A stretch of DNA of 64,000 nucleotides, taken from positions 124,001 to 188,000 of the forward strand of contig NZ_ATXQ01000001.1 of NCBI RefSeq assembly GCF_000421765.1, in the 5' to 3' direction. This DNA comes from Denitrificimonas caeni DSM 24390 (GTDB taxonomy: Bacteria > Pseudomonadota > Gammaproteobacteria > Pseudomonadales > Pseudomonadaceae). Of the stretch, positions 13,706-30,846 are shown one piece after another (position 1 is the first letter of the stretch; each line of letters begins with the position of its first letter). The position numbers and the translations under genes are program-made. Below the pieces are notes generated by a model, which saw nothing but the letters and a program-made list of their open reading frames with translations, searched no databases and had not been told where the DNA came from.

Positions 13706-15475
13706 TTATTTGGTATGTTCTTTTGGCAGTTTAAAGGTCCAGACCATGCCGCCCTGGTTAAAGTCTTTAACCCGCTTAGCCACCTCACCGCCCCATAATG
13801 GTACAGCGCCACCCCAACCTGAAACGACGCTAATATATTGCTCGCCATCCATATCCCAAGTCACAGGTGAACCCAGTACACCTGAGCCTGTTTGGAACTC
13901 ATAGAGCTTTTTACCGGTTTTTGCATCAAAGGCCATTAAGAAGCCTTCAGGGTTACCCGTAAAGACCAGATTACCTTTGGTCGCCAATACCCCGCCCCAT
14001 AACGGTGAGTTATTTTTATAACGCCATACTTCTTTACCAGTTTTCGGATCAATGGCTTTTAACACGCCAATATAATCTTCATTCAGTGGTCGGATGGTAA
14101 AGCCAGCACCTAAGTAGGCTGCGCCTTTTTTATAGGTCACACCTTCGTTCCAGATGTCCATGCCCCACTCATTGACCGGTACATAGAACAAACCGGTGTC
14201 TTGGCTATAAGCCATTGGCATCCAGTTTTTCGCACCTAAGAAAGCAGGGGCAACAAATACTGAACTGCCTTGTTTCTCAGCACCCGGCGCTCCAGGGCGA
14301 TTACTTTCGTCATAGATGGGACGACCATCTTTATCCAAGCCTTTAGCCCAAGTAATCTTATCGGCGAATGGGAAACCACGAATAAACTTACCGTTGGTAC
14401 GATCCAAAACATAGAAATAACCGTTACGGTCAGCTGTCGCTGCTGCTTTCACGGTTTTGCCGTTTTCTTGATAGCTAAAGGAGACTAATTCGTTGACACC
14501 ATCGTAGTCCCAGCCGTCGTGCGGTGTGGTTTGGAAGTGCCATTTGATCGAACCATCATCCGGGTTCAGTGCTAAACGTGAAGAGGAAAACAGGTTGTCG
14601 CCTGGACGCATATGCGAGTTCCAAGGTGACGGGTTACTGGTACCGAAGAGTAAAGAATCGGTTTCCGCATCATAAGAACCACCCAGCCACGGGGCTGCGC
14701 CACCGGTTTTCCAAAGGTCGCCTGGCCATGTTTTGCCGGCTTCCCCACCGGAAATACCACTTTCGATTTTTTGACCGTCTTTCCAGACATAACCCATATG
14801 GCCTTCAACGGTTGGACGCGTCCAGATCAAATCACCATTCAAAGGGTTATAGGCCTCAACTTTACCAACGATACCGAATTCACCACCAGAAACGCCGGTG
14901 ATCAGCTTGCCTTTCACCACAATTGGCGCGGCAGTAATGGAGTATCCAGCTTTATAATCCGCAACAGTTTTACGCCACACCACTTTACCAGTGTCTTTAT
15001 TGAGCGCGACGAGCTTGGCATCAAGGGTACCGACAATCACTAAATCGCCGTACAAAGCCACACCACGATTAATCACATCACAGCACGGCATAATGCCGTC
15101 TGGTAGACGCGCGTCGTACTGCCACAACTCTTTACCGGTACGTGCATCGACTGCGAAAACACGTGAATAGGAGGCGGTGACATACATCACGCCGTCTTTA
15201 ATCATGGGCTGTGATTCTTGTCCGCGCTGCTTCTCACCGCCAAAGGATAAAGCCCACACCGGACGCAATTGCTGCACGGTATCGACGTTGACTTTATTCA
15301 GGGGGCTATAACGCTGCCCAGCTAAACCTAAACCATTACTGACAACCTGATGCGTCGTCGTCGCATCGTCTAAAATTTCTTTATCAGTTACCGCCACAGC
15401 ACCGGTACTGTGTAGCAGCATTGCGCCGCATAATGCGGATAGAGCAAACATTTGATGCAGTCTTGTGCGTTTCAT
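13706..15475 (-). CDS. pedH: Lanthanide-type PQQ-dependent alcohol dehydrogenase, PedH-like
   Basis: 589 residues from the ATG at 15475 (AGAGG eight bases upstream; an in-frame GTG three codons earlier overlaps the ribosome site). Signal peptide, then an eight-bladed quinoprotein propeller exported to the periplasm. Landmarks: vicinal cysteines PCC at 131-132 that stack on PQQ, metal ligands Glu199 (GGEFG) and Asn281 (TSNPSP), catalytic Asp323, and a second Asp325 in GWDYDGVNE. The Asp two residues after the catalytic Asp is the established sign of lanthanide-dependent enzymes, as in XoxF and PedH. It oxidises primary alcohols and aldehydes and passes electrons to a cytochrome c. A GGGAAATAATCCC palindrome lies just before the start. 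Confidence 0.93.
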
Positions 15476-15507: not shown

Positions 15508-15522
15508 CGGGAAATAATCCCG
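15508..15522 (-). promoter_or_regulatory. GGGAAATAATCCC palindrome in the pedH leader
   Basis: CGGGA-AATAA-TCCCG, 33-47 nt upstream of the pedH start. It matches 12 of 13 positions of the repeated element in front of pedE (GGGAAATATTCCC). Its closeness to the start would suit a repressor site. The rest of the gap 15523-15822 holds the pedH promoter and that of the divergent binding-protein gene. Confidence 0.55.
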
Positions 15523-15586
15523 AACCGATATAGATTCTTAGCTGCAGCAGGCTCTACAACAATTGACCTCAATACCTAGTTAACAC

Positions 15587-15598
15587 CTACGTTAGTAG
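15587..15598 (-). promoter_or_regulatory. CTAC-N4-GTAG dyad upstream of pedH
   Basis: CTACGTTAGTAG with perfect CTAC/GTAG arms, 112-123 nt before the pedH start. It belongs to the dyad family seen before other PQQ-region operons. It also lies 225 nt before the divergent binding-protein gene. Confidence 0.4.
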
Positions 15599-15822
15599 TA
15601 ACACCTCACTGTGCAGAGCGAACAATTGCACTGCATACCGCCCCTCGCACTCTGGCCAATGGCTGCCCTTCGCGCCTGATTACGCCCAGCAAACCAAGAC
15701 CGTCAACTAAAGCCTTACACCGTGGCCAAGGCTAAAGTTCTAAGCGCTTGGCTATAACAGAGCATGGGTTAACGTCCGCAATAAGACTAAAAAACAGACT
15801 TCACTCAAAAGGAGGAATAGCA

Positions 15823-17061
15823 GTGAAGCAACCGATTGTTCACGCTTTAATCATGTGTCTATTACCCATCAGCGTGCTGGCCAATGAGCCGATTAAAATA
15901 GGCTTAAATTTCCCGCGCACCGGCAACTATAAAGCCGAGGGCCTTGAGCTGATGCAAGGCTCGCTGTTGGCCATTGAACACATTAATCATAACGGCGGAG
16001 TGCTGGGCCGCCCACTGCAGCTGCTCAGCAAAAACAGCGCCTCGCGCGCTGAAAAAGCACAACGTAATGTCGATGAGTTTTTTCGCAGTGAAGCGAAAAT
16101 GATTTTTGGCGGTGCTACCAGCGAAGAAGCGATCGCCGCTGGACGGCGTGCCCGCGAGTTAGGCTTGCCGTATTTTGCCCTGCTCAGTTACGCCAATGAG
16201 GTCACCGGACGCGAAGGCCACCGTTATATTTTTCGCGAATCCAATAACGACTGGATGAGTGCGCAAGTACTCGGTGAATACCTGTCCTGGCACATGCCAC
16301 GCCAGCGCTATCACTATATTATTAGCGACGACACCTGGGGGCTGAGCATGGAGGCAGCGTTGCGCTTAGCCACCGCCAGTCAAGATCGCGCCAAACACAG
16401 TTTCACCCGCTTAAACCCTGTCAATGCCAGTCATGCCGAATACAAGCAAGCACTGATCAAGGCACAGAAAAGCCAAGCCGATATCCTTGTCTTAGTACTG
16501 CAAGGGCAAAATGTTATGCACGCCATGCGCGTTGTGCATGCCATGGGTTTAAATAACCAAGTACAAATTATTATTCCCAATTTAAGCCGCACACTGATCC
16601 AGAACCTTGGCGCGCAAACCATGACTGGCGTGATCGGCACCCAAGCCTGGACTTGGCGCGTACCCGCACTGGAAAACAGCGTAAAAGGTCGCGCCTTCGT
16701 TAAGGATTATACCCAGCGCTATAGTGAATACCCCGGCAGTGCCGCCGCGTCGGCTTATAGCGTGGTGTACCAATGGGCTGACGCCGTGCAACGCACCCAC
16801 AGTTTAGATAGCGAGAGCATTATTAAAGCGCTCGAAGACCACAGCTATCAACTGCTTAAGGGCCCGCAGCAGTGGCGTGGTTTTGACCACCAAAACGTAC
16901 AAGACATCTACGCGATTCGGGTTAAATCGCGTGCGGAGATTATGCAGGATCCTCTCAAACAAGATTACTTTGAAATCATCCATCGCATGCAAGGCCAAGA
17001 TGCGGTGCAATCATTGGACGACTGGCAGCAAGAGCGCGGCGAGCATTTAACCCTAGACTGA
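15823..17061 (+). CDS. Type 1 periplasmic binding protein (branched-chain amino acid ABC family)
   Basis: 412 residues from the GTG at 15823, which has a full GGAGG seven bases upstream; the frame is open further upstream but without a ribosome site. A signal peptide (ALIMCLLPISVLANE) is followed by a LivK/UrtA-type two-lobe receptor. It has the ligand-sensing start KIGLNFPRTGNYKAEGLELMQGSLLAIEHI-like segment and GGATSEEAIAAGRRA. No permease or ATPase for it is adjacent. It is divergent from pedH and shares its promoter region, so it may bind an alcohol-related or metal-related ligand and act in sensing or uptake. The ligand is unknown. Confidence 0.8.
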   Translation: MKQPIVHALIMCLLPISVLANEPIKIGLNFPRTGNYKAEGLELMQGSLLAIEHINHNGGVLGRPLQLLSKNSASRAEKAQRNVDEFFRSEAKMIFGGATSEEAIAAGRRARELGLPYFALLSYANEVTGREGHRYIFRESNNDWMSAQVLGEYLSWHMPRQRYHYIISDDTWGLSMEAALRLATASQDRAKHSFTRLNPVNASHAEYKQALIKAQKSQADILVLVLQGQNVMHAMRVVHAMGLNNQVQIIIPNLSRTLIQNLGAQTMTGVIGTQAWTWRVPALENSVKGRAFVKDYTQRYSEYPGSAAASAYSVVYQWADAVQRTHSLDSESIIKALEDHSYQLLKGPQQWRGFDHQNVQDIYAIRVKSRAEIMQDPLKQDYFEIIHRMQGQDAVQSLDDWQQERGEHLTLD

Positions 17062-17079
17062 GGCAACTGCAGGCCACAT

Positions 17080-17119
17080 AAAACCTTCAAGATTACCTGA
17101 GCAACACTTGGAGGTTTTT
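17080..17119. terminator. Bidirectional terminator between convergent genes
   Basis: Arms AAAACCTTCAAG and CTTGGAGGTTTTT pair with one mismatch around a 15-nt loop, between the convergent binding-protein and metallohydrolase genes. A and T tracts on the two sides allow use from both directions. Confidence 0.6.
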
Positions 17120-17150
17120 GACCATCAAGCTATCTAATGGCTGTTAATGC

Positions 17151-18077
17151 TTATTGATCCAATCGCTGCCACTGTTGCTGCTCATAGCGTGGATAGAGAT
17201 GACTGACCGTACGGATCAATTCATAACGCGTCAAACTGACCCCAGCAAAGCGCTCTGGAATAGGCATTCTTAGGACTTGATTCATATCCTGCCCAGCCTG
17301 CGCCGCTTCACGCAGAGCACTGTCCAACCAGTTTAAGTAATCACGCATCTGCACAAAGGGTTGATGATCAGTGGCCAGCGGCCCATGCCCTGGCACAATC
17401 AGTTTCCACGGTAGTTTCTCTAACGTATCAATATCAGCTAGCCAAGCTGCCAGCCCTGGAGTATTCGGAGTGGCTAACGCGCGCTGATAAAACACTAAAT
17501 CTCCAGCAAACAACACCCCAGTGCGCTCATCTAAAATAGCCAAATCAGCCCCGGTATGCCCAGTCAAACTCAGCAGACGCAAAGGATGACCGCCAATTTC
17601 CATTAGGCCTTCTTCGACGAGTTGCGTCGGCAACAGCACCTCGGTACCACGCATCGCGTCGCCGACCACGCGATACATGTTTTCCGCCATATAGTTGCCT
17701 TGCTCTTGCAGCAGCTTTTTAGTGCCGGCTAAAGCCGCAATCGGCACATCGTCAAAGGCCTGATTACCCAGCACATGGTCAGGATGATGATGGGTCAGTA
17801 ACACTTGGATTACCGGCTTATCAGTGACACTGGCAATCGCTGCACGCAAGACTTTGCCATAGGCAAAAGAAGGGCCGGTATCCACCACCACCACACCGTG
17901 GTCAGTTACAATAAAGGCTGCATTGACGATATTACCGCCATTATGCAGACTGAAGTTGTCCGTTGAGCCTTCGACTAACCAAGTGTTTTCAGCAATTTTC
18001 TTCGGTGTTAATTGATAGTCCGCAACCGCGCTAAGACTCAAGAAAAAACTGCAACAGAATATAAATAAGTAACGCAT
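17151..18077 (-). CDS. Quinoprotein-associated zinc metallohydrolase (MBL fold)
   Basis: 308 residues. A signal peptide (YLFIFCCSFFLSLSAVADY) is followed by a metallo-beta-lactamase fold with the metal motif LLTHHHPDHVLGN near residue 95, a second His in SLTGHTGADLA, the bridging Asp in LFAGDLVF and the last His in VPGHGPLA. All zinc ligands are present. Members next to quinoprotein dehydrogenase genes are known as quinoprotein relay system zinc metallohydrolases, and their substrate is not established. The SoxYZ-like carrier immediately upstream suggests it acts on a sulfur adduct on the carrier. It is the last gene of the pedF-pedG-carrier-hydrolase operon. Confidence 0.88.
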   Translation of the reverse strand: MRYLFIFCCSFFLSLSAVADYQLTPKKIAENTWLVEGSTDNFSLHNGGNIVNAAFIVTDHGVVVVDTGPSFAYGKVLRAAIASVTDKPVIQVLLTHHHPDHVLGNQAFDDVPIAALAGTKKLLQEQGNYMAENMYRVVGDAMRGTEVLLPTQLVEEGLMEIGGHPLRLLSLTGHTGADLAILDERTGVLFAGDLVFYQRALATPNTPGLAAWLADIDTLEKLPWKLIVPGHGPLATDHQPFVQMRDYLNWLDSALREAAQAGQDMNQVLRMPIPERFAGVSLTRYELIRTVSHLYPRYEQQQWQRLDQ

Positions 18078-18180
18078 AACATCACCTCAATCGACAAAAC
18101 ACTACGCTGCAAAAATCACTGCAGCAGGCCTCGCTAAACCATGCCAAGCACTGCATACAAAAACGGCGAAGCGCAGTGGC

Positions 18181-18933
18181 CTATGGAATATGTGCAGTAA
18201 ACTCATTGCCGTTGTTATCACGCAGCCACAGTTGCGTTTCTGGCTGACCTTTAATCCCTAAGGTAATGGTGGGATTTTCACTAATCGCAGAAAATATCTC
18301 TAAACGCGCCAGCACCGCACCGGAAAGATCACGTAGCTCAGCCTGATCGAGATAGAACTCAGGGATGGAATCGACTAAACCATTGTCCATAGGATGCGAG
18401 ACGCTTAAACGTAAACGGCTGTTATCACCGGTATTAAAGCGCGCACCTAAGATTTCACCGAGATGATCCTCCCAGCCTTCCTGCGCTCTGACTACACTGG
18501 GTGCAGTGCAACCACCACCGGCTGCCTCAATCCGTGCTGAGCCGACGTGCCAAATACCATCATCCATTAAAAATGCCGCACGAATCGGCGTGGCCTGTTC
18601 TACTCGAATGCGCACCGCCAGAAACTTTTCTAATTCAGCACTGGGATAGACATTCAGCACTTGTGGAATGGGGTTAAGCTCAGCCCACAGCATGATTTTT
18701 TCGACGCGACCAGTTAACGCTCTAGCGTCGACTTCGACAGGGACTTGCCGCGCATCTTCGGCAAAAGGCGGCACGCTGACCTGAACCTTCTCATCAAAGA
18801 CAAACTCAGCATTGTTGAGTAAACGCTCGTGAAAGTACTCCCACATTACTGAAGGTTGCGGATCGCCCTCAACCGCATTGGCCCAGCACGACACCAGGGA
18901 CAAGACTAAGGCACAGACCATACGCTGTTTCAT
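18181..18933 (-). CDS. Quinoprotein dehydrogenase-associated SoxYZ-like carrier
   Basis: 250 residues with a signal peptide (ALVLSLVSCWANA). The first half resembles SoxY, ending in a glycine-flanked cysteine (AAGGGCTAP, Cys142) that stands where SoxY carries its substrate. The second half is an immunoglobulin-like SoxZ domain (SVSHPMDNGLV, EFYLDQAELRD). The family is a natural SoxY-SoxZ fusion found beside PQQ dehydrogenases without the rest of the sulfur-oxidation system. The job is unknown; a thiol-linked carrier working with the neighbouring metallohydrolase is the best inference. It is periplasmic. Confidence 0.85.
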   Translation of the reverse strand: MKQRMVCALVLSLVSCWANAVEGDPQPSVMWEYFHERLLNNAEFVFDEKVQVSVPPFAEDARQVPVEVDARALTGRVEKIMLWAELNPIPQVLNVYPSAELEKFLAVRIRVEQATPIRAAFLMDDGIWHVGSARIEAAGGGCTAPSVVRAQEGWEDHLGEILGARFNTGDNSRLRLSVSHPMDNGLVDSIPEFYLDQAELRDLSGAVLARLEIFSAISENPTITLGIKGQPETQLWLRDNNGNEFTAHIP

Positions 18934-18977
18934 ACCACCTCCAGCTTTACACTATGGGAACCACTGTTGCATTTAAG

Positions 18978-19877
18978 CTATTGGTACATCTCAGGCTTCT
19001 CATAACTTAAATGGTACTTGTCATATAGCGCCTGCATACGCCCATCGGCAATCATTGCTTCAGTCAGTGCTTCGACGGTATAGGCCAGTTGGCGATTACT
19101 TTCATGCACGGCCATACCCACTTCCCAAGTCGATTGACCTAAATTGGGATAGGCGGCGTCAGATTTTTTCAGCTGCGCATCCTTGGTTTGACTGAGCAGC
19201 CATTCCAGCTCACCGCGCATCGCCATCACCGCATCGACCTTGCCGTCTTGCATGGCGGCAAACGCCGCAGTTGGACTGACAAAGTGCTTAACATTGGAGC
19301 TCAGACGCCCAGCAAAGGCGGTGAGCAAGTAAAACGAAGGCACTGAATCATCTTCGACACCGACTGGGTGATACTGAAACACCCCGACTGTTTCCAGGCT
19401 TTTGATGCGGCGGCTGTTGTACACGGTGAGCCAGCGTTCACGCTGATAAGGACCAAACATCACCACTAACTCGTTAACCAACTCACCCAGTTCATTGCGT
19501 CGATTGGAGAATTCACGATCGTAAGGCACGCGCAGCATTAAATCAGCGCGAATGTCTTTACGTAAGTAATGACCACGCCAAATAAAGTTGCGCAAATCAT
19601 CATCAATTTTTTCACCTGGAACAACCCAGAGCAGCTCTAAGCTAACACCCAATTCCTGCGCAACCTGCTCAGCCAATTCAACATCAACGCCCTTAGCCTG
19701 ACCATCAACTGTAAAACTATAGGGCGCAAAATTTTCGTAAACAGCCACTTTCAGCGTGCCTGCGTCAATCATGTCATCGTATGTACGCACTGGCGTGCTA
19801 ATACTTTCCGCAAACAACTGGGAGGTTAGCGACAAGCTTAAGAAAGCACACACAGACAATAAGATTCGACGCATCAT
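18978..19877 (-). CDS. pedG: Quinoprotein dehydrogenase-associated substrate-binding protein, PedG/MxaJ-like
   Basis: About 299 residues. Three consecutive ATG codons (19880, 19877, 19874) follow the pedF stop; the second or third is best spaced from GGAG. A signal peptide (ILLSVCAFLSLSLTSQLFA) is followed by a type 2 periplasmic binding fold: LKVAVYENFAPYSF, GVDVELAEQVAQELG, and a C-terminal EALTEAMIADGRMQALYDKY typical of extracellular solute-binding family 3. Relatives (MxaJ, XoxJ) are thought to help load PQQ or metal, or to activate the dehydrogenase, rather than to serve a transporter. No cognate transporter is adjacent. Confidence 0.87.
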   Translation of the reverse strand: MMRRILLSVCAFLSLSLTSQLFAESISTPVRTYDDMIDAGTLKVAVYENFAPYSFTVDGQAKGVDVELAEQVAQELGVSLELLWVVPGEKIDDDLRNFIWRGHYLRKDIRADLMLRVPYDREFSNRRNELGELVNELVVMFGPYQRERWLTVYNSRRIKSLETVGVFQYHPVGVEDDSVPSFYLLTAFAGRLSSNVKHFVSPTAAFAAMQDGKVDAVMAMRGELEWLLSQTKDAQLKKSDAAYPNLGQSTWEVGMAVHESNRQLAYTVEALTEAMIADGRMQALYDKYHLSYEKPEMYQ

Positions 19878-19879
19878 CA

Positions 19880-20317
19880 TTACTCCGGCAGAGGACGGCT
19901 TTCGATGTAGGTACGAATTGCCCACAGTGCTTCTTGGCTTAAATAATCCGCCATTCTTGGCATATACACCGCTCCATTGCGTACTGCACCATTGATCACT
20001 CGTTCTTTATACCAATCATCACCGTCAAGGCCTGGCTCTAACAGACGCAAGTCAGGGGCAATGCCACCCGACTGTGCTTCTAGACCATGACAACGCGCAC
20101 AGTTTTGATTGTAAGCCGATGAGCCAATGTCTATAGCCAAAGCGTTTTGCTCATTGGGTGCTCGATAGGGGTTTTCATCCAGCCACTCTTCACCGATTGT
20201 TTCTAATTCACCGGTATTGACACTTTGCGGTACCACATCACCATGCGCATACAACGCAGTAGAAAAACCTAGACATGTCGCAACCAAAGTAGCCAAAACT
20301 GTATTTTTGTTGTTCAT
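19880..20317 (-). CDS. pedF: Cytochrome c-550 PedF (electron acceptor of PQQ alcohol dehydrogenase)
   Basis: About 145 residues. ATG at 20317 (or 20320) follows GGTGG; the frame's first ATG at 20329 precedes that site. A signal peptide ends near ALYAHG. One haem c site is NCARCH (Cys73, Cys76, His77 from the 20317 start), with the axial Met probably in VYMPRMADYL. The conserved HGDVVPQSV start of the mature protein and the SSAYNQNCARCHGLEA block are typical of the ethanol-oxidation cytochrome c-550 of pseudomonads. It accepts electrons from PedE/PedH in the periplasm. First gene of its operon, divergent from pedE. Confidence 0.92.
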   Translation of the reverse strand: MNNKNTVLATLVATCLGFSTALYAHGDVVPQSVNTGELETIGEEWLDENPYRAPNEQNALAIDIGSSAYNQNCARCHGLEAQSGGIAPDLRLLEPGLDGDDWYKERVINGAVRNGAVYMPRMADYLSQEALWAIRTYIESRPLPE

Positions 20318-20409
20318 CATTCCCACCATTATTTAAATGTACGCAAGGCTTTCGCCATCCATATAAACACTGGTTTTCATGTTAGAAATGTCTCCCTCAG
20401 AGTAGAACG

Positions 20410-20421
20410 CTGCTTTAGTTG
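20410..20421 (-). promoter_or_regulatory. TTTAGT dyad upstream of pedF
   Basis: CTGCTTTAGTTG, 93-104 nt upstream of the pedF start and about 210 nt from pedE. It matches the common PQQ-region dyad at its core (GCTTTAGT) with imperfect arms. The 313-nt gap 20318-20630 is the divergent promoter region of pedF and pedE. Confidence 0.4.
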
Positions 20422-20501
20422 TCGAGAACCAGGCCCTTAGTACTAGTTTAAAAGACATATAGAAAATGGCTTTAGAAGCACTGCCAATTGAGCTACCCGC
20501 T

Positions 20502-20536
20502 GGGAATATTTCCCGTTGCCGGCGGGAAATATTCCG
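20502..20536 (+). promoter_or_regulatory. Double GGGAAATATTCC palindrome upstream of pedE
   Basis: Two head-to-head copies of GGGAAATATTCC (GGAATATTTCCCG at 20503-20515 and CGGGAAATATTCC at 20523-20535) form a perfect 13-bp inverted repeat with a 7-nt spacer. Each copy is itself a near-palindrome. The site is 95-129 nt upstream of the pedE start, an activator-like distance. The same 13-mer with one change lies 33-47 nt before pedH. The PedR2-like regulator encoded just downstream is the obvious candidate to bind it. Confidence 0.6.
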
Positions 20537-20630
20537 TATGCATCGCTCTCGTACTTTCACACCATGGATACCGTCACTGCGCACATATCTGTCGCAAGAC
20601 TCACAACATGCAACCACGGGAAGTACAGCA

Positions 20631-22490
20631 ATGATAAAAAAACAATTACCCAGCTCTGCCAAACCCCTAGCCCTCGCCGTCAAGGGCTTAATCTTAGGCG
20701 CCACCTTACTGGGCTCAAGCTTGAGTTTTGCCTCATCAGTGACTTGGGAAGATATTGCCCAAGACCATTTGACCACCAGCAACGTCTTGCAATACGGCAT
20801 GGGCACGAACGCACAGCGTTACAGCCCATTAACCAAAATTAACGAAGACAACGTGTTCAAGCTGACGCCGGCTTGGACCTACTCGTTTGGTGATGAAAAA
20901 CAACGCGGCCAAGAGTCTCAAGCTGTGATTCATGACGGCATTATTTATGTTACGGGCTCTTACTCGCGGGTTTGGGCACTCGATGCAAAAACCGGCAAAC
21001 GCCTGTGGAACTACAGCCACCGCTTGCCTGACGATATCCGCCCATGCTGTGACGTCGTCAACCGTGGCGTAGCTATCTTCGGCGATAAAGTGTTCTTCGG
21101 CACACTTGATGCGCGTGTTGTCGCACTCAACAAAGAAACCGGTAAAGTGGTTTGGAACAAGAAGTTTGGTGATCACGCTGCGGGTTACACCATGACCGGC
21201 GCACCGACCATGGCTAAAGATGCCAAAACAGGCAAAGTTCTGCTGATTCACGGCAGCTCCGGCGATGAGTTTGGCGTGGTCGGCAAACTGTTTGCCCGTG
21301 ACCCCGACACCGGTGAAGAAGTGTGGATGCGTCCCTTTGTGGAAGGCCATATGGGCCGCCTCAACGGTAAAGACAGCACGCCGACCGGCGATGTCAAAGC
21401 ACCGTCATGGCCAGATGATCCAAACCACCCAACTGGAAAAAAAGAAGCCTGGAGCCAAGGCGGTGGAGCACCATGGCAGAGCGCCAGCTTTGACGCGGAA
21501 ACCAACACCATTATCGTTGGTGCCGGTAACCCAGCACCTTGGAACGGCTGGGAGCGTACCGCTGATGGTGGGGATCCTAAAGATTTCGACAGCCTTTACA
21601 CCTCAGGCCAAGTCGGCGTTGATGCCACCACCGGTGAAGTGAAATGGTTCTACCAGCACACACCAAACGATGCCTGGGACTTCTCCGGTAACAACGAACT
21701 CGTGCTGTTTGATCACAAAGACAAAAACGGCAAGGTCACCAAAGCCACAGCGCACGCTGACCGTAACGGTTTCTTCTATGTCGTTGATCGCAACAACGGT
21801 AAGCTGAAAAATGCCTTCCCATTTGTTGACGGTATTACTTGGGCTTCACACATCGACTTAGAAACCGGTCGTCCAGTTGAAGGTAAAGGCCAGCGTCCAG
21901 AGAAACCACTACCAGGCGAGACGCGCGGTAAGTCAGTGGAAGTCTCTCCACCGTTCTTAGGCGGTAAAAACTGGAACCCAATGGCTTACAGCCAAGACAC
22001 TGGTCTGTTCTATGTACCAGCGAACCACTGGAAAGAAGACTACTGGACTGAAGAAGTCTCCTACAAAAAAGGCTCGGCTTACTTAGGTCAAGGCTTCCGT
22101 ATCAAGCGTCTGTTTGATGACCACGTCGGTATCTTACGTGCGATGGATCCAACCACCGGTAAAGTTGCTTGGGAACACAAAGAGAAATTACCCTTGTGGG
22201 CTGGCGTATTGGCCACCAAAGGTAACCTCGTGTTCACCGGTACCAGTGACGGTTACTTCAAAGCCTTTAACGCGAAAACCGGTAAAGAACTGTGGAAATT
22301 CCAAACCGGTAGTGGCGTGATTTCACCACCAGTAACATGGGAAATGGATGGTCAGCAGTATATCGGTGTGACCTCAGGTTACGGCGGCGCTGTACCACTG
22401 TGGGGCGGTGACATGGCGGAATTGACCAAACCTGTGGCACAGGGCGGTTCATTCTGGGTGTTCAAATTGCCCGAGTGGGACAACAAGTAA
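20631..22490 (+). CDS. pedE: Calcium-type PQQ-dependent alcohol dehydrogenase, PedE/ExaA-like
   Basis: 619 residues from the ATG at 20631 (GGGAAG eight bases upstream), which begins a signal peptide with core LALAVKGLILGATLLGSSLS. The open frame continues to 20466 through the promoter palindrome, so that extension is rejected. Quinoprotein propeller landmarks: vicinal cysteines 139-140 (RPCCDV), metal ligands Glu213 (GDEFG) and Asn300 (GAGNPAP), catalytic Asp350 in AWDFSGNNE with Ser352 two residues later. Ser at that place, instead of Asp, is the calcium-enzyme pattern of ExaA and PedE. It oxidises ethanol and other alcohols in the periplasm and reduces PedF. About 30 residues longer than the PedH-like enzyme, mostly from a loop around 245-275. 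Confidence 0.93.
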   Translation: MIKKQLPSSAKPLALAVKGLILGATLLGSSLSFASSVTWEDIAQDHLTTSNVLQYGMGTNAQRYSPLTKINEDNVFKLTPAWTYSFGDEKQRGQESQAVIHDGIIYVTGSYSRVWALDAKTGKRLWNYSHRLPDDIRPCCDVVNRGVAIFGDKVFFGTLDARVVALNKETGKVVWNKKFGDHAAGYTMTGAPTMAKDAKTGKVLLIHGSSGDEFGVVGKLFARDPDTGEEVWMRPFVEGHMGRLNGKDSTPTGDVKAPSWPDDPNHPTGKKEAWSQGGGAPWQSASFDAETNTIIVGAGNPAPWNGWERTADGGDPKDFDSLYTSGQVGVDATTGEVKWFYQHTPNDAWDFSGNNELVLFDHKDKNGKVTKATAHADRNGFFYVVDRNNGKLKNAFPFVDGITWASHIDLETGRPVEGKGQRPEKPLPGETRGKSVEVSPPFLGGKNWNPMAYSQDTGLFYVPANHWKEDYWTEEVSYKKGSAYLGQGFRIKRLFDDHVGILRAMDPTTGKVAWEHKEKLPLWAGVLATKGNLVFTGTSDGYFKAFNAKTGKELWKFQTGSGVISPPVTWEMDGQQYIGVTSGYGGAVPLWGGDMAELTKPVAQGGSFWVFKLPEWDNK

Positions 22491-23249: not shown

Positions 23250-23897
23250 TTAGCTGGCTTCACCAATACGCAACACCCCGGTATCAATGGCTAGATGCAC
23301 TAATTCAACATGTGAAGTGACTTGTAACTTATGCTTGAGTAACGTCATGTAATTGGACACGGTTTTATTACTGATACACAGCGTCTTGGAAATTTTCTGA
23401 GTGGGCAATCCACGCGACAACATCACAAAGACTTCCATTTCTCTAGGGGTCATGCTTTGTAAACGCGGATCGATAGCACCCTGAGTGTATTTTTGACTGG
23501 CGAGTTGGGTGGCCAGTCCCTGCTCAATATACATCTGCCCAGCTAAGGTACGGCGCACCGCCTCAACCAAAACATCCGGCGCAGAACTCTTAGTGATATA
23601 ACCCGTAGCTCCTGCATCTAAGGCCTGTCGAACCAAAGACAACTCATCATGCATACTAAAAAACAACACCGGCAATTGTGGTAAACGCTGGCGTAAACGT
23701 CGACAGGTTTCTAAGCCACTGATACCCGGCAAGCCAATATCCAGCACCACTAAATGCGGGCCTAACAAGGGCACCGCTGACAATGCCTCTTCGCCACTGC
23801 CTGCTTCATCGACCTGCACTTCAGGCAGCAAGGCTTTGAGCAAACTGGCATAGCCTTGACGCACCACAGCATGATCATCCACCAATAAGATTTTCAT
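23250..23897 (-). CDS. pedR2: Response regulator, NarL/FixJ family, PedR2/EraR-like
   Basis: 215 residues from the ATG at 23897; the frame upstream lies in the kinase gene. Receiver domain with LLVDDHAVVRQG, the phosphorylated Asp in LVVLDIGLPGISG (about residue 54) and the Lys in GYITKSSA. Linker, then a LuxR-type helix-turn-helix (MTPREMEVFVMLSRGLPTQK, LCISNKTVSNYMTLLKHKL). Two bases separate it from the kinase stop. In P. putida the regulator at this place is PedR2, which activates pedE and represses pedH when lanthanides are absent; in P. aeruginosa it is EraR. The assignment rests on position and architecture. Confidence 0.88.
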   Translation of the reverse strand: MKILLVDDHAVVRQGYASLLKALLPEVQVDEAGSGEEALSAVPLLGPHLVVLDIGLPGISGLETCRRLRQRLPQLPVLFFSMHDELSLVRQALDAGATGYITKSSAPDVLVEAVRRTLAGQMYIEQGLATQLASQKYTQGAIDPRLQSMTPREMEVFVMLSRGLPTQKISKTLCISNKTVSNYMTLLKHKLQVTSHVELVHLAIDTGVLRIGEAS

Positions 23898-23899
23898 TA

Positions 23900-25150
23900 T
23901 TACTCTCCGACCATTGGTAGATAAAGATAAATGCTCCAACCACGCTTGCTGCGCGCTTGAATATGCAACTGAGCCGCCAAGGTTCGAGCGCGCTCGGCCA
24001 TCGAGCGCAAACCCAGACCTTGATGCGGCACCGCGCAGCCACTGCCATTATCACGCAGCAACAGACGCACAGCGCCAGCCTTATATTGCATCCAAATCTG
24101 CACCTCAGTCGCCTGCGCATGCCGGCTGACATTGGTTAAGGCTTCTTGCAGAAAACGGTACAACTGATTTTTTTGTGCCACTGTTAACAGCGGCAGCGTA
24201 TTGAAAACATGCAACCGGCATTGACCGCCATGGCTTTGTTGCCAGTGCTCTTGCAGGTGCTCCAACATTTGCGCGACGCTCAGGTGATCGAGCATGGCCG
24301 GATACAAATCACGCACCAAACAGCGAAAACCGGTTTGTAATTGTTGGCCATGTTCTTCTAATACCTGTGCCACTGACAACACGGTCTGCGGCTGCTCGCG
24401 CACAACTTGCAGCAACTTAATTTGTGCGCGCATGCCCGCCACATACTGACCTAAATCATCATGCAGGGTCTGCCCCAGGCGGCTGCGCTCAGTATCTTGT
24501 AAATTTAATAGCGCTCTGGTCAGCTGACTATTTTCTGCTTGAGCGGACTGCAAAGCTGCAGCCATTTTATTAAATTGCTCGGCTAACTGTTCTGCTTCAC
24601 GCAGCGGATAGGTTTGCAAACGAACGGCTAACTGCCCTTCACCAATCTGCTGTAACGCCAACAACACGTCATCCAAAACTAAAAGGCCGCGACGTACTGC
24701 CCAGCGAATGGCCAGCAAGCTCATAATCAGTGCTAAAGCAAAAACGCCCAGCAACTGCACGATCGAGTCTTGCGCTTCTTCGACTTCATCTTGCGGATCA
24801 ATGGCCAACAACAAAGCGCGGCCATCAGACAAGGCAATCCGATGCAAAGGTGCCGGTTGTGGGTATAAAAACTGAGTTAAGCGATCATGTGTCTGTGTTG
24901 CATTTAAGGTGCTACTTTCTCCGGCCGCTACCAACTCCAGTCGCACATGCCTTAGATACCCTTCTAAGCGAACAAATCGTTCTGGATCATTTGGCGCGGC
25001 TTCGGCCAGATAATCCACCAACACCTGTGCAGCGCCTAACTCACGCTGCACATCGGCTTCCGCTTGACGCAATAACACCACTAAACAAACACTGACTACT
25101 GCAGCAAAGAATAGCGTCACATAAACATTAATGCGCCATAACGTCGACAT
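23900..25150 (-). CDS. pedS2: Membrane sensor histidine kinase, PedS2/EraS-like
   Basis: 416 residues. Membrane helix 1 (VTLFFAAVVSVCLVVLL) is followed by a periplasmic sensor of about 100 residues, membrane helix 2 (LLGVFALALIMSLLAIRWAV), a HAMP linker, and a HisKA_3 domain with the phospho-His in RLGQTLHDDLGQY. A compact HATPase domain has RDNGSGC and GLGLRSMAERA. The periplasmic loop is rich in Glu and Asp (ALLLAIDPQDEVEEAQD), which would suit a cation sensor. In P. putida the equivalent kinase is the lanthanide-responsive PedS2. It lies 25 nt after the cupredoxin-like gene and two bases before its regulator, so all three are probably one transcript. Confidence 0.87.
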   Translation of the reverse strand: MSTLWRINVYVTLFFAAVVSVCLVVLLRQAEADVQRELGAAQVLVDYLAEAAPNDPERFVRLEGYLRHVRLELVAAGESSTLNATQTHDRLTQFLYPQPAPLHRIALSDGRALLLAIDPQDEVEEAQDSIVQLLGVFALALIMSLLAIRWAVRRGLLVLDDVLLALQQIGEGQLAVRLQTYPLREAEQLAEQFNKMAAALQSAQAENSQLTRALLNLQDTERSRLGQTLHDDLGQYVAGMRAQIKLLQVVREQPQTVLSVAQVLEEHGQQLQTGFRCLVRDLYPAMLDHLSVAQMLEHLQEHWQQSHGGQCRLHVFNTLPLLTVAQKNQLYRFLQEALTNVSRHAQATEVQIWMQYKAGAVRLLLRDNGSGCAVPHQGLGLRSMAERARTLAAQLHIQARSKRGWSIYLYLPMVGE

Positions 25151-25175: not shown

Positions 25176-25613
25176 TTACTTAACAATAAACTCGCCTTGC
25201 ATGCCTTTACTCTCAAGACCTTTGCAGAAGTAGGAATAGCGACCCGGCTTAATCGGTACAAAGAACATTTCAGCTTGGCCAGCGTCCTCAAATTCAAGCT
25301 CAGTCAACATAACGGCTTTGACTTCAATGCCACCGGCTTCAACTTTGCGTAAATAAATGGACTGCATAAACTGTGGCGCTTGGAAGGCACATTCTTTTTG
25401 CCCGTTAGAAATAATCTTCAAACGGTAAGAGCCACCGGTTTCTAACTGATAACTTTTTTCCGTGAAACTGTAATCGCTTTGCTCAGAACCCATCACTAGA
25501 TCTGGTAGACGTTGAGGCTTGGTGGTCAAATCCCCAGCAGCTTGAACCCTATCCAGTCCAATCATGCCTGACACCAACACTACTGCTAACGTTGTCGCTT
25601 TTAAAAAACTCAT
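25176..25613 (-). CDS. Cupredoxin-like periplasmic protein with degenerate metal site
   Basis: 145 residues with a signal peptide (TTLAVVLVSGMIGLDRVQA). The C-terminal 90 residues have the cupredoxin shape: strand SYRLKIISNGQKECAF, then a strand ending FFVPIKPGRYSYFCKG and a closing KGMQGEFIV. In a type 1 copper site one expects His near the first strand and Cys-x2-His-x4-Met at the end. Here the Cys and Met are present but both His positions hold other residues (Cys-Ala and Leu). It may therefore bind copper differently or not at all. It is first in the operon with the PedS2/PedR2-like pair, which suggests an accessory sensing role. Confidence 0.75.
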   Translation of the reverse strand: MSFLKATTLAVVLVSGMIGLDRVQAAGDLTTKPQRLPDLVMGSEQSDYSFTEKSYQLETGGSYRLKIISNGQKECAFQAPQFMQSIYLRKVEAGGIEVKAVMLTELEFEDAGQAEMFFVPIKPGRYSYFCKGLESKGMQGEFIVK

Positions 25614-25772
25614 AGTCTGTCTTCCTAGTTATTTTTATGACAAGACCATGCTAATCAGAGCGCAATCCAAACAATCTCCTACCTTGGTACTGCCTAGTTG
25701 GTACTTTCTGCATATTCCTTTCGCGACAGACTGTTCCTATGCTGGTTTTTAATTAGCGAGGACATCTTTACT

Positions 25773-30183: not shown

Positions 30184-30846
30184 ATGTACAACATATTAAT
30201 TGCTGACGATCACCCGCTGTTTCGCGAGGCGATTTGTAACGTGATTCGTTCAGGTTTTCCTGACTGCACTATCATCGAAACCGCAGACCTAGACAGCACC
30301 TTACTGCTCGCCTGTGAACACGACGATCTTGATTTAATTTTACTAGATCTCAATATGCCAGGCATGAGCGGACTCAACGGCCTTATGAGCTTACGCAATG
30401 AAGCGCCCACCATCCCCGTGGTTATTGTCTCTGCAGAACAAGATAAACATATTGTTTTACAAGCCATTACCTATGGCGCGGTTGGTTTTATCACCAAATC
30501 TACACCTCGCGAGCAAATGACCGCAGCCATCGAGCAAGTGTTAAACGGGCATGTTTACTTGCCGGCTGACATCATCCGTTCCGAACAAGCCAACACGCGG
30601 CGTACACCGCGCGAAGCGACTATCTCTCCAGAATTATTGCAGGCACTGACACGTAAACAATTACAAGTGCTCGAGCGTATGGCTAAAGGCGAAGCGAATA
30701 AACAAATTGCTTATAATTTGGACATTGCTGAGACCACAGTTAAAGCGCATGTCTCGGCTATTTTAAGAAAGCTCAACGTTCATAACCGTGTGCAAGCCAT
30801 TCTGTCCGTCGGTGACATTGATTTCTCTACTTACCTTCGCCGCTAA
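30184..30846 (+). CDS. erbR: Response regulator ErbR/AgmR (PedR1)-like
   Basis: 220 residues from the ATG at 30184. Receiver domain with [14 protein letters not shown], acceptor Asp in [13 protein letters not shown] (about residue 57) and the Lys in GFITKSTP. LuxR-type DNA-binding domain from about residue 150 with [20 protein letters not shown] and [17 protein letters not shown]. In Pseudomonas this regulator (ErbR in P. aeruginosa, AgmR/PedR1 in P. putida) is the master activator of the PQQ and ethanol oxidation genes. It is the best candidate for the CTACT-TT-AGTAG dyads, since one lies in front of its own operon. Confidence 0.9.

Follow-up and report, generated by a model that had tools for sequence, protein, structure and literature searches.

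A palindrome paired upstream of pedE and single at pedH as the probable PedR2 operator in Denitrificimonas caeni and its relatives

In Pseudomonas putida, the response regulator PedR2 activates pedE and represses pedH in the absence of lanthanum (PMC6115532). How exactly the PedE/PedH switch works was called unknown in a 2024 review (PMC11845868). A stretch of 64,000 nucleotides of the genome of Denitrificimonas caeni DSM 24390 (contig NZ_ATXQ01000001.1, positions 124,001 to 188,000; termed the window) contains a gene set that matches the P. putida ped cluster tabulated in PMC12997753. A calcium-type and a lanthanide-type pyrroloquinoline quinone (PQQ) alcohol dehydrogenase are both encoded in this one cluster, the former by pedE (20631 to 22490, plus strand) and the latter by pedH (13706 to 15475, minus strand). 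Both products match TIGR03075, with the motifs WDFSGNNE and WDYDGVNE, respectively, in which the extra Asp of the second type marks lanthanide enzymes; a first-pass annotation of the window had assigned the two types correctly. The pedR2 gene (23250 to 23897, minus strand) encodes a LuxR-type response regulator with Response_reg and GerE domains and the phospho-acceptor Asp53, and is adjacent to the sensor histidine kinase gene pedS2 (23900 to 25150, minus strand), whose product has HisKA_3 and HATPase_c domains and a HAMP domain slightly below the cut-off. We describe here a palindrome, GGGAAnnnTTCCC in its generalised form, which is located twice upstream of pedE and once at the pedH promoter. 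This palindrome is probably the PedR2 operator, with the paired sites activating pedE and the single site blocking pedH, a reading to which we assign a probability of roughly 0.78.

A single palindrome (GGGAAATAATCCC) is present in the window at positions 15509 to 15521, 33 nt ahead of the pedH ATG (15475, minus strand), and a pair is found at −129 to −95 relative to the pedE ATG (20631). The distal member of the pair occupies positions 20502 to 20514 (GGGAATATTTCCC, or GGGAAATATTCCC on the minus strand) and the proximal member positions 20524 to 20536 (GGGAAATATTCCG). Their positions in the first-pass annotation were right to within one base, and the perfect 13-bp head-to-head inverted repeat that it had reported before pedE was recovered as exact reverse complements at 20503 to 20515 and 20523 to 20535. 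This exact repeat was peculiar to the D. caeni genome, the conserved part being two separately palindromic 13-mers located 22 bp apart.

Exact matches to the pattern GGGAAATAWTCCC were detected at only two places in the 3.02-Mb genome, the pedH and pedE promoters (contig 1, 139509 and 144502), compared with no exact place for the reversed-pattern control. Allowing one mismatch yielded five places, three of which were in the window and included the second pedE site; as the control yielded three forward and four reverse places, the two lying outside the window look like background. Seven matches with up to two mismatches were present in the window compared with 1.8 expected, and this number was reached in none of 100 shuffles. 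A looser pattern, GGGAANNNTTCCC, was found at a single place in the genome, the pedE site, and the window pedH site differed from it by one base. The window palindromes are not a repetitive extragenic palindromic (REP)-type repeat, an identity that the first-pass annotation had listed as one that would refute its reading.

Loci of relatives were obtained by a PedE search of genome contigs, and the best 80 of 394 were utilized, amounting to 1.63 Mb from Pseudomonas, Stutzerimonas, Denitrificimonas, Thiopseudomonas and metagenome-assembled genomes (MAGs). These loci contained 111 exact copies of GGGAAnnnTTCCC, of which 47 were before pedE, 45 before pedH and 19 before a TonB-dependent receptor gene. 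No exact copy was detected elsewhere in the 1.63 Mb, and eight control palindromes or spacings gave zero or one match each. The exact site was located ahead of 47 of the 80 pedE genes and was present in 45 of the 49 loci with a match to the pedH query; of the other four, L006, L007 and L044 had one mismatch each, and the pedH match of L042 (37% identity) was rejected as not being pedH. Letter-shuffled promoters had a mean of 0.03 sites and a maximum of 1, against 92/130 observed. Examination of 20 whole genomes detected 63 exact copies compared with 44 for the reversed control; 31 of the 63 were assigned by hand to pedE, pedH or the receptor, and the remaining 32 were at background level. A second refuting condition of the first-pass annotation, that close relatives lack the site before pedE and pedH, likewise failed, as their promoters carry it. 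Both targets proposed there were retained, and a third, the TonB-dependent receptor, has to be added in some relatives.

The spacing of the paired sites was invariant. When spacings of 15 to 39 were scanned, the best pair had a spacing of 22 bp in 81 of 81 pedE promoters (the 80 loci and the window), with one tie. Over the 20 positions of the pair, one to three mismatches were observed in 78 of these promoters, four in L064 and L080 and five in L051, compared with four to nine in shuffled pedE sequences, none of which (0/405) had three or fewer. A distance of 22 bp is approximately two helical turns. The pair was at a variable distance from the ATG (62 to 214 nt), but 57 of 70 distinct promoters had a −10-like hexamer 23 to 24 nt past the proximal site, compared with a mean of 6 and a maximum of 13 in shuffles. 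With the hexamer set as −12 to −7, the site centres are predicted to lie at approximately −42 and −64, adjoining the −35 region, the location at which class II-type activators bind. The predicted −10 region of the window pedE gene is CACCAT (20560 to 20565, plus strand), assigned from conservation of the hexamer offset and missed by a consensus scan; the proximal palindrome would abut the −35 region.

The pedH promoter was analyzed in a sample of 139 promoters (113 distinct), consisting of the window, 48 named loci, 60 fetched regions from six genera and 30 further loci, with some overlap. The best site had no mismatches in 114 promoters, one in 19, two in 5 and three in 1. For the 60 fetched regions alone, the corresponding numbers were 44, 11, 4 and 1, compared with a reversed control in which two mismatches were present in 5 regions, three in 31 and four in 24. 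The gap from AAGAAT (or AACAAT) to the downstream site was 12 nt in 126 promoters, 13 nt in 11 and 11 nt in 2, and a TTGTTG-like −35 element was located 17 nt upstream of the −10 in 133 of the 139. As this gap is fixed and the distance from site to ATG varies (31 to 92 nt among the 138 promoters whose ATG was located), the site belongs to the promoter rather than to the start codon. Genus g5 has longer leaders, by up to tens of bases, and the site is still at its fixed place relative to the −10. For the window, the predicted elements are a −35 of TTGTTG (15562 to 15557, minus strand), supported by spacer conservation 17 nt from the −10, a −10 of AAGAAT (15539 to 15534, minus strand), which lies in a conserved alignment block and was missed by the consensus scan, and a start at about 15527, placing the operator at approximately +7 to +19 of the pedH transcript. 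At the search cut-off used, pedH was present in 118 of 248 family genomes.

The first-pass annotation had attributed the opposite effects of the regulator to a double upstream site at the activated gene and a single promoter-proximal site at the repressed one. The 81 pedE and 139 pedH promoters examined fit this pattern of two sites and one site, respectively, and the interpretation is supported and essentially right. Its distances, however, were counted from the start codons, the meaningful distance being that from the promoter; and the pedH site, while single and near the promoter, lies downstream of the predicted start.

The third target encodes a TonB-dependent receptor (PF00593 and PF07715) and adjoins pedR2/pedS2 in a group of Stutzerimonas loci. 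The 19 exact copies at this gene were pairs or half-pairs, 22 bp apart, including one before a broken gene copy. All 10 full-length orthologues with at least 84% identity for which upstream DNA was available carried a pair with a 22-bp spacing and zero or one mismatch; L015 (contig end), L032 (67 aa matched) and the broken copies of L074 and G121 were excluded from this group. The pair was also carried by G048 and by G147, the latter possibly conspecific with one of the loci. The layout of the receptor promoter was like that of pedE: in 7 of 7 aligned sequences, GATAAT lay 24 nt beyond the proximal site. Linkage of pedH to the receptor was observed in L010, L013 to L015, L017 to L019 and L021; pedH was unlinked but in the same genome for L048, L059, L061 and L074 and was also present in the receptor genomes G147 and G121. 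In G048, a 78% complete genome, no pedH match was detected at the cut-off used. Receptor matches at 1e-60 were found in only 4 of 119 family genomes (one approximately 50% identical and one a fragment), indicating a clade-specific addition. For the distant TonB receptors of L035 (41% identity), L036 (26%) and G018 (approximately 45 to 50%), no tandem was detected in the scanned DNA, G018 having one weak single match with two mismatches; the operator claim is limited to the close orthologue group. No solved structure matched the receptor at 1e-10. As the receptor is predicted to be switched on under a lanthanide-shortage regulator, it is a candidate for lanthanide import. A close homologue of the methylotroph lanthanide receptors is reported to be absent from P. 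putida KT2440 (PMC6839425) and, for P. putida, also in PMC12997753.

The receptor gene of L010 is located at 16298 to 18598, between the ped cluster and pedR2/pedS2, and orthologues are present in L013, L014, L015 (cut by the contig end), L017, L018, L019, L021, L048, L059 and L061. L074 (14039 to 15219) and G121 have a receptor gene with a large internal deletion and a retained paired operator.

These arrangements suggest how the switch may operate. In the absence of lanthanides, PedS2 would phosphorylate PedR2, and two PedR2 dimers would occupy the neighbouring sites at approximately −42 and −64 of pedE, separated by two helical turns, with the proximal dimer beside the −35 region. The bound pair would recruit RNA polymerase to pedE, and PedR2 on the single pedH site, just past the start at approximately +7 to +19, would block the polymerase. 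In the presence of lanthanides, PedR2 would be dephosphorylated, expression of pedE would drop and pedH would be freed. In some Stutzerimonas strains, the same paired layout may control the TonB-dependent receptor, which is predicted to be on in lanthanide shortage. The widest form of this proposal is that PedR2 is a lanthanide-shortage regulator with a family-wide code, in which two sites upstream and 22 bp apart mean on and one site past the start means off, and that in Stutzerimonas it also switches on an outer-membrane lanthanide receptor; this we advance tentatively, at somewhat short of even odds.

PedR2 is the best candidate for the binding protein given its reported opposite effects on the two genes, the existence of a separate element for PedR1 and the presence of a PedR2 orthologue in 13 of 14 genomes tested. 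A clear pedR2 gene was missing from the fetched pedE locus in 9 of these 14, and 8 of the 9 have PedR2 in the genome. The palindrome could instead be the site of PedR1/AgmR, the other LuxR-type regulator controlling pedE, which in P. putida is required for pedE and is thought to act directly (PMC13390443). The window gene proposed for this regulator (30184 to 30846, plus strand) also encodes a LuxR-type protein, and was named pedR1/agmR-like by position and likeness; its best NCBIfam match is ErdR, below the cut-off, and its orthologues in the ped loci of relatives have 74 to 98% identity. A second conserved element, STACCAAGGNAGTAG, was, however, detected ahead of pedH and in the pedF-pedE intergenic region; subsets of the loci also have it upstream of pedA1 and the pedS2R2 operon, of pedI and of the CXXCW gene. 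A matrix for this element gave 223 matches in the 80 loci, among which are the pedE and pedH copies on which it was trained. The reversed matrix gave 37, and four matrices with shuffled columns gave 43, 12, 9 and 4. The pedS2R2 promoter is reported to require PedR1 and not PedR2, and pedE to require both (PMC13390443). As the pedS2R2/pedA1 region has STACCAAGGNAGTAG and no conserved copy of the palindrome, the second element by elimination fits PedR1/AgmR and the palindrome PedR2. Furthermore, binding of PedR1 at both genes would not by itself account for their opposite regulation, and we consider PedR1 an unlikely owner of the palindrome.

Binding by some other regulator, for example, a PedH-dependent lanthanide activator of pedH, is similarly improbable. 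An unidentified activator of pedH has been postulated (PMC6115532), but the paired site also precedes pedE where the genome shows no pedH match, and the site is thus not specific for pedH; an activator would, in addition, be poorly placed at the pedH site, past the predicted start. The pedH copy is self-complementary and within the predicted leader, as would be expected of an RNA hairpin whose likeness to the pedE sites was coincidental. We regard this explanation as very doubtful since the pedE and receptor copies are upstream of the predicted starts, and so outside the transcripts, and since the near-constant distance from the −10, found in 139 of 139 pedH promoters, points to a DNA-bound, promoter-linked role. 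Chance or a REP-like repeat with no function, for which the background of approximately two exact matches per genome in the reversed control is the sole argument, is made negligible by the genome specificity, conservation, fixed geometry and shuffle controls.

Several observations weigh against PedR2 as the binder or against the proposed mechanism. Scanning for the sigma-70 consensus yielded no promoter at pedE or pedH, and the predicted −10 and −35 assignments are hence drawn from conservation only. Moderate reductions of pedE, pedF and pedI are reported for pedR2 mutants (PMC13390443), and no exact palindrome was detected at pedI in the 80 loci, so that the pedI effect may be indirect or the list of PedR2 sites incomplete; pedF shares the pedE intergenic region, which bears on the effect reported for it. 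In RNA sequencing, pedH did not rise with lanthanides; both genes fell and their ratio was reversed, erbium being the exception (PMC11520305); reporter fusions did show a rise of pedH with lanthanides (PMC5487730). Repression of pedH by PedR2 was partial, and further activation by an unknown regulator was invoked (PMC6115532). Of 27 genomes searched, 13 had no pedH-level match and still kept the pedE pair, so the pair alone is uninformative about lanthanides. PedR2 was not found in the MAG genome of L064, which has a degenerate pedE pair, and the named loci do not include that of P. putida KT2440. A pedR2 gene of 57 to 70% identity is located near pedR1, with no pedH beside pedE, in 15 loci (L071, L075, L078, L079, L081, L083, L084, L042, L047, L020, L054, L055, L067, L076 and L080). 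No PedS2 or PedA1 homologue was detected in the fetched flanks of these loci, and no pedH-level match was detected in the 10 whole genomes searched. As the flanks contain no PedS2 homologue, PedR2 must be driven otherwise there.

Other features of the window and of the search were recorded. The cytochrome c550 gene pedF (19880 to 20329, minus strand; TIGR04494) is divergent from pedE, with a common intergenic region, and the remaining proteins of the window cluster comprise SoxYZ-like proteins, a metallohydrolase and a pentapeptide protein, besides PedF, the response regulator and the histidine kinase. A conserved 145-aa protein with no Pfam match is encoded at 25176 to 25613, upstream of pedS2 and in the same direction, and its gene adjoins pedS2 in most loci bearing pedS2. 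Copies of the second element are present on the minus strand of the window in the divergent region between pedA1 and pedS2R2 (GTACCAAGGTAGGAG, 25676 to 25690; a proposed PedR1 box), at pedH as a diverged copy (GGTGTTACTACTAACGTAGGTGTTAA, 15580 to 15605) and between pedF and pedE as a weak match (GTACTAAGGGCCTGG, 20429 to 20443). The pedA1 promoter (window positions 25690 to 25760) has its own conserved element, GGTACTTTCTGCATATT followed by TTCCTATGCTGG, which is palindrome-like in some species. As a further target, pedA1 was rejected: alignment indicated that its single GGGCATATTTCCC sites, present in the mendocina group and some others, are a differently conserved element that reads CTGCATATT elsewhere. 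Outside the family, a tandem with no more than one mismatch was found in 1 of 367 genomes (G590; L289 near 7552, G590:C9:259551), 74 nt ahead of a gene whose beta-propeller product has 34% identity to PedA2 and, at 257 bits, is below the PQQ-associated family cut-off of 287. This tandem may be accidental or may represent use of the site in a distant group. A looser tandem search (up to three mismatches; at least 162 of 248 family genomes) was left unused, as its matches included some that were not ped-like and its control was nonzero.

Both the operator with its strict code and the receptor target appear to be new. A literature search, with subscription papers (e.g., Promden 2009, cited in PMC13390443) outside its scope, found in the passages covered no PedR2 binding motif, promoter geometry or receptor target and no description of STACCAAGGNAGTAG. 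The main text of PMC6115532 contains none of the terms motif, palindrome, binding site or inverted repeat. With an operator of defined and strict geometry, the switch becomes testable by mutating a few bases, the probable sites of PedR2 and of PedR1 can be told apart, and one specific receptor gene is singled out. If the proposal is true, the Stutzerimonas receptor would be the missing import step in non-methylotrophic pseudomonads. The binding motif of the P. aeruginosa counterpart may have been determined by DNA affinity purification sequencing (Trouillon 2021), and the motif may thus already be in print.

That a LuxR-type regulator activates or represses according to the position of its site is an established type of control. 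NarL-type regulators are LuxR-type proteins whose effect is set by the position of the site relative to the promoter; the site and the signal differ from those proposed here, where the rule would be two sites upstream versus one downstream. In methylotrophs, LutH and other TonB-dependent receptors are tied to a lanthanide PQQ enzyme and an ATP-binding cassette importer (PMC6839425, PMC11520305). The Stutzerimonas receptor is like these in kind and setting, and its own role in lanthanide uptake is putative. ExaDE/EraSR of P. aeruginosa is the named counterpart of PedS2R2 and controls the pedE homologue exaA, although this species, unlike the window, is said to lack a functional pedH (PMC12997753). 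The PedS2/PedR2 system of P. putida KT2440 (PMC6115532) is like that of the window in its gene set and order, in a LuxR-type regulator with Asp53 and in having both a calcium and a lanthanide dehydrogenase as targets.

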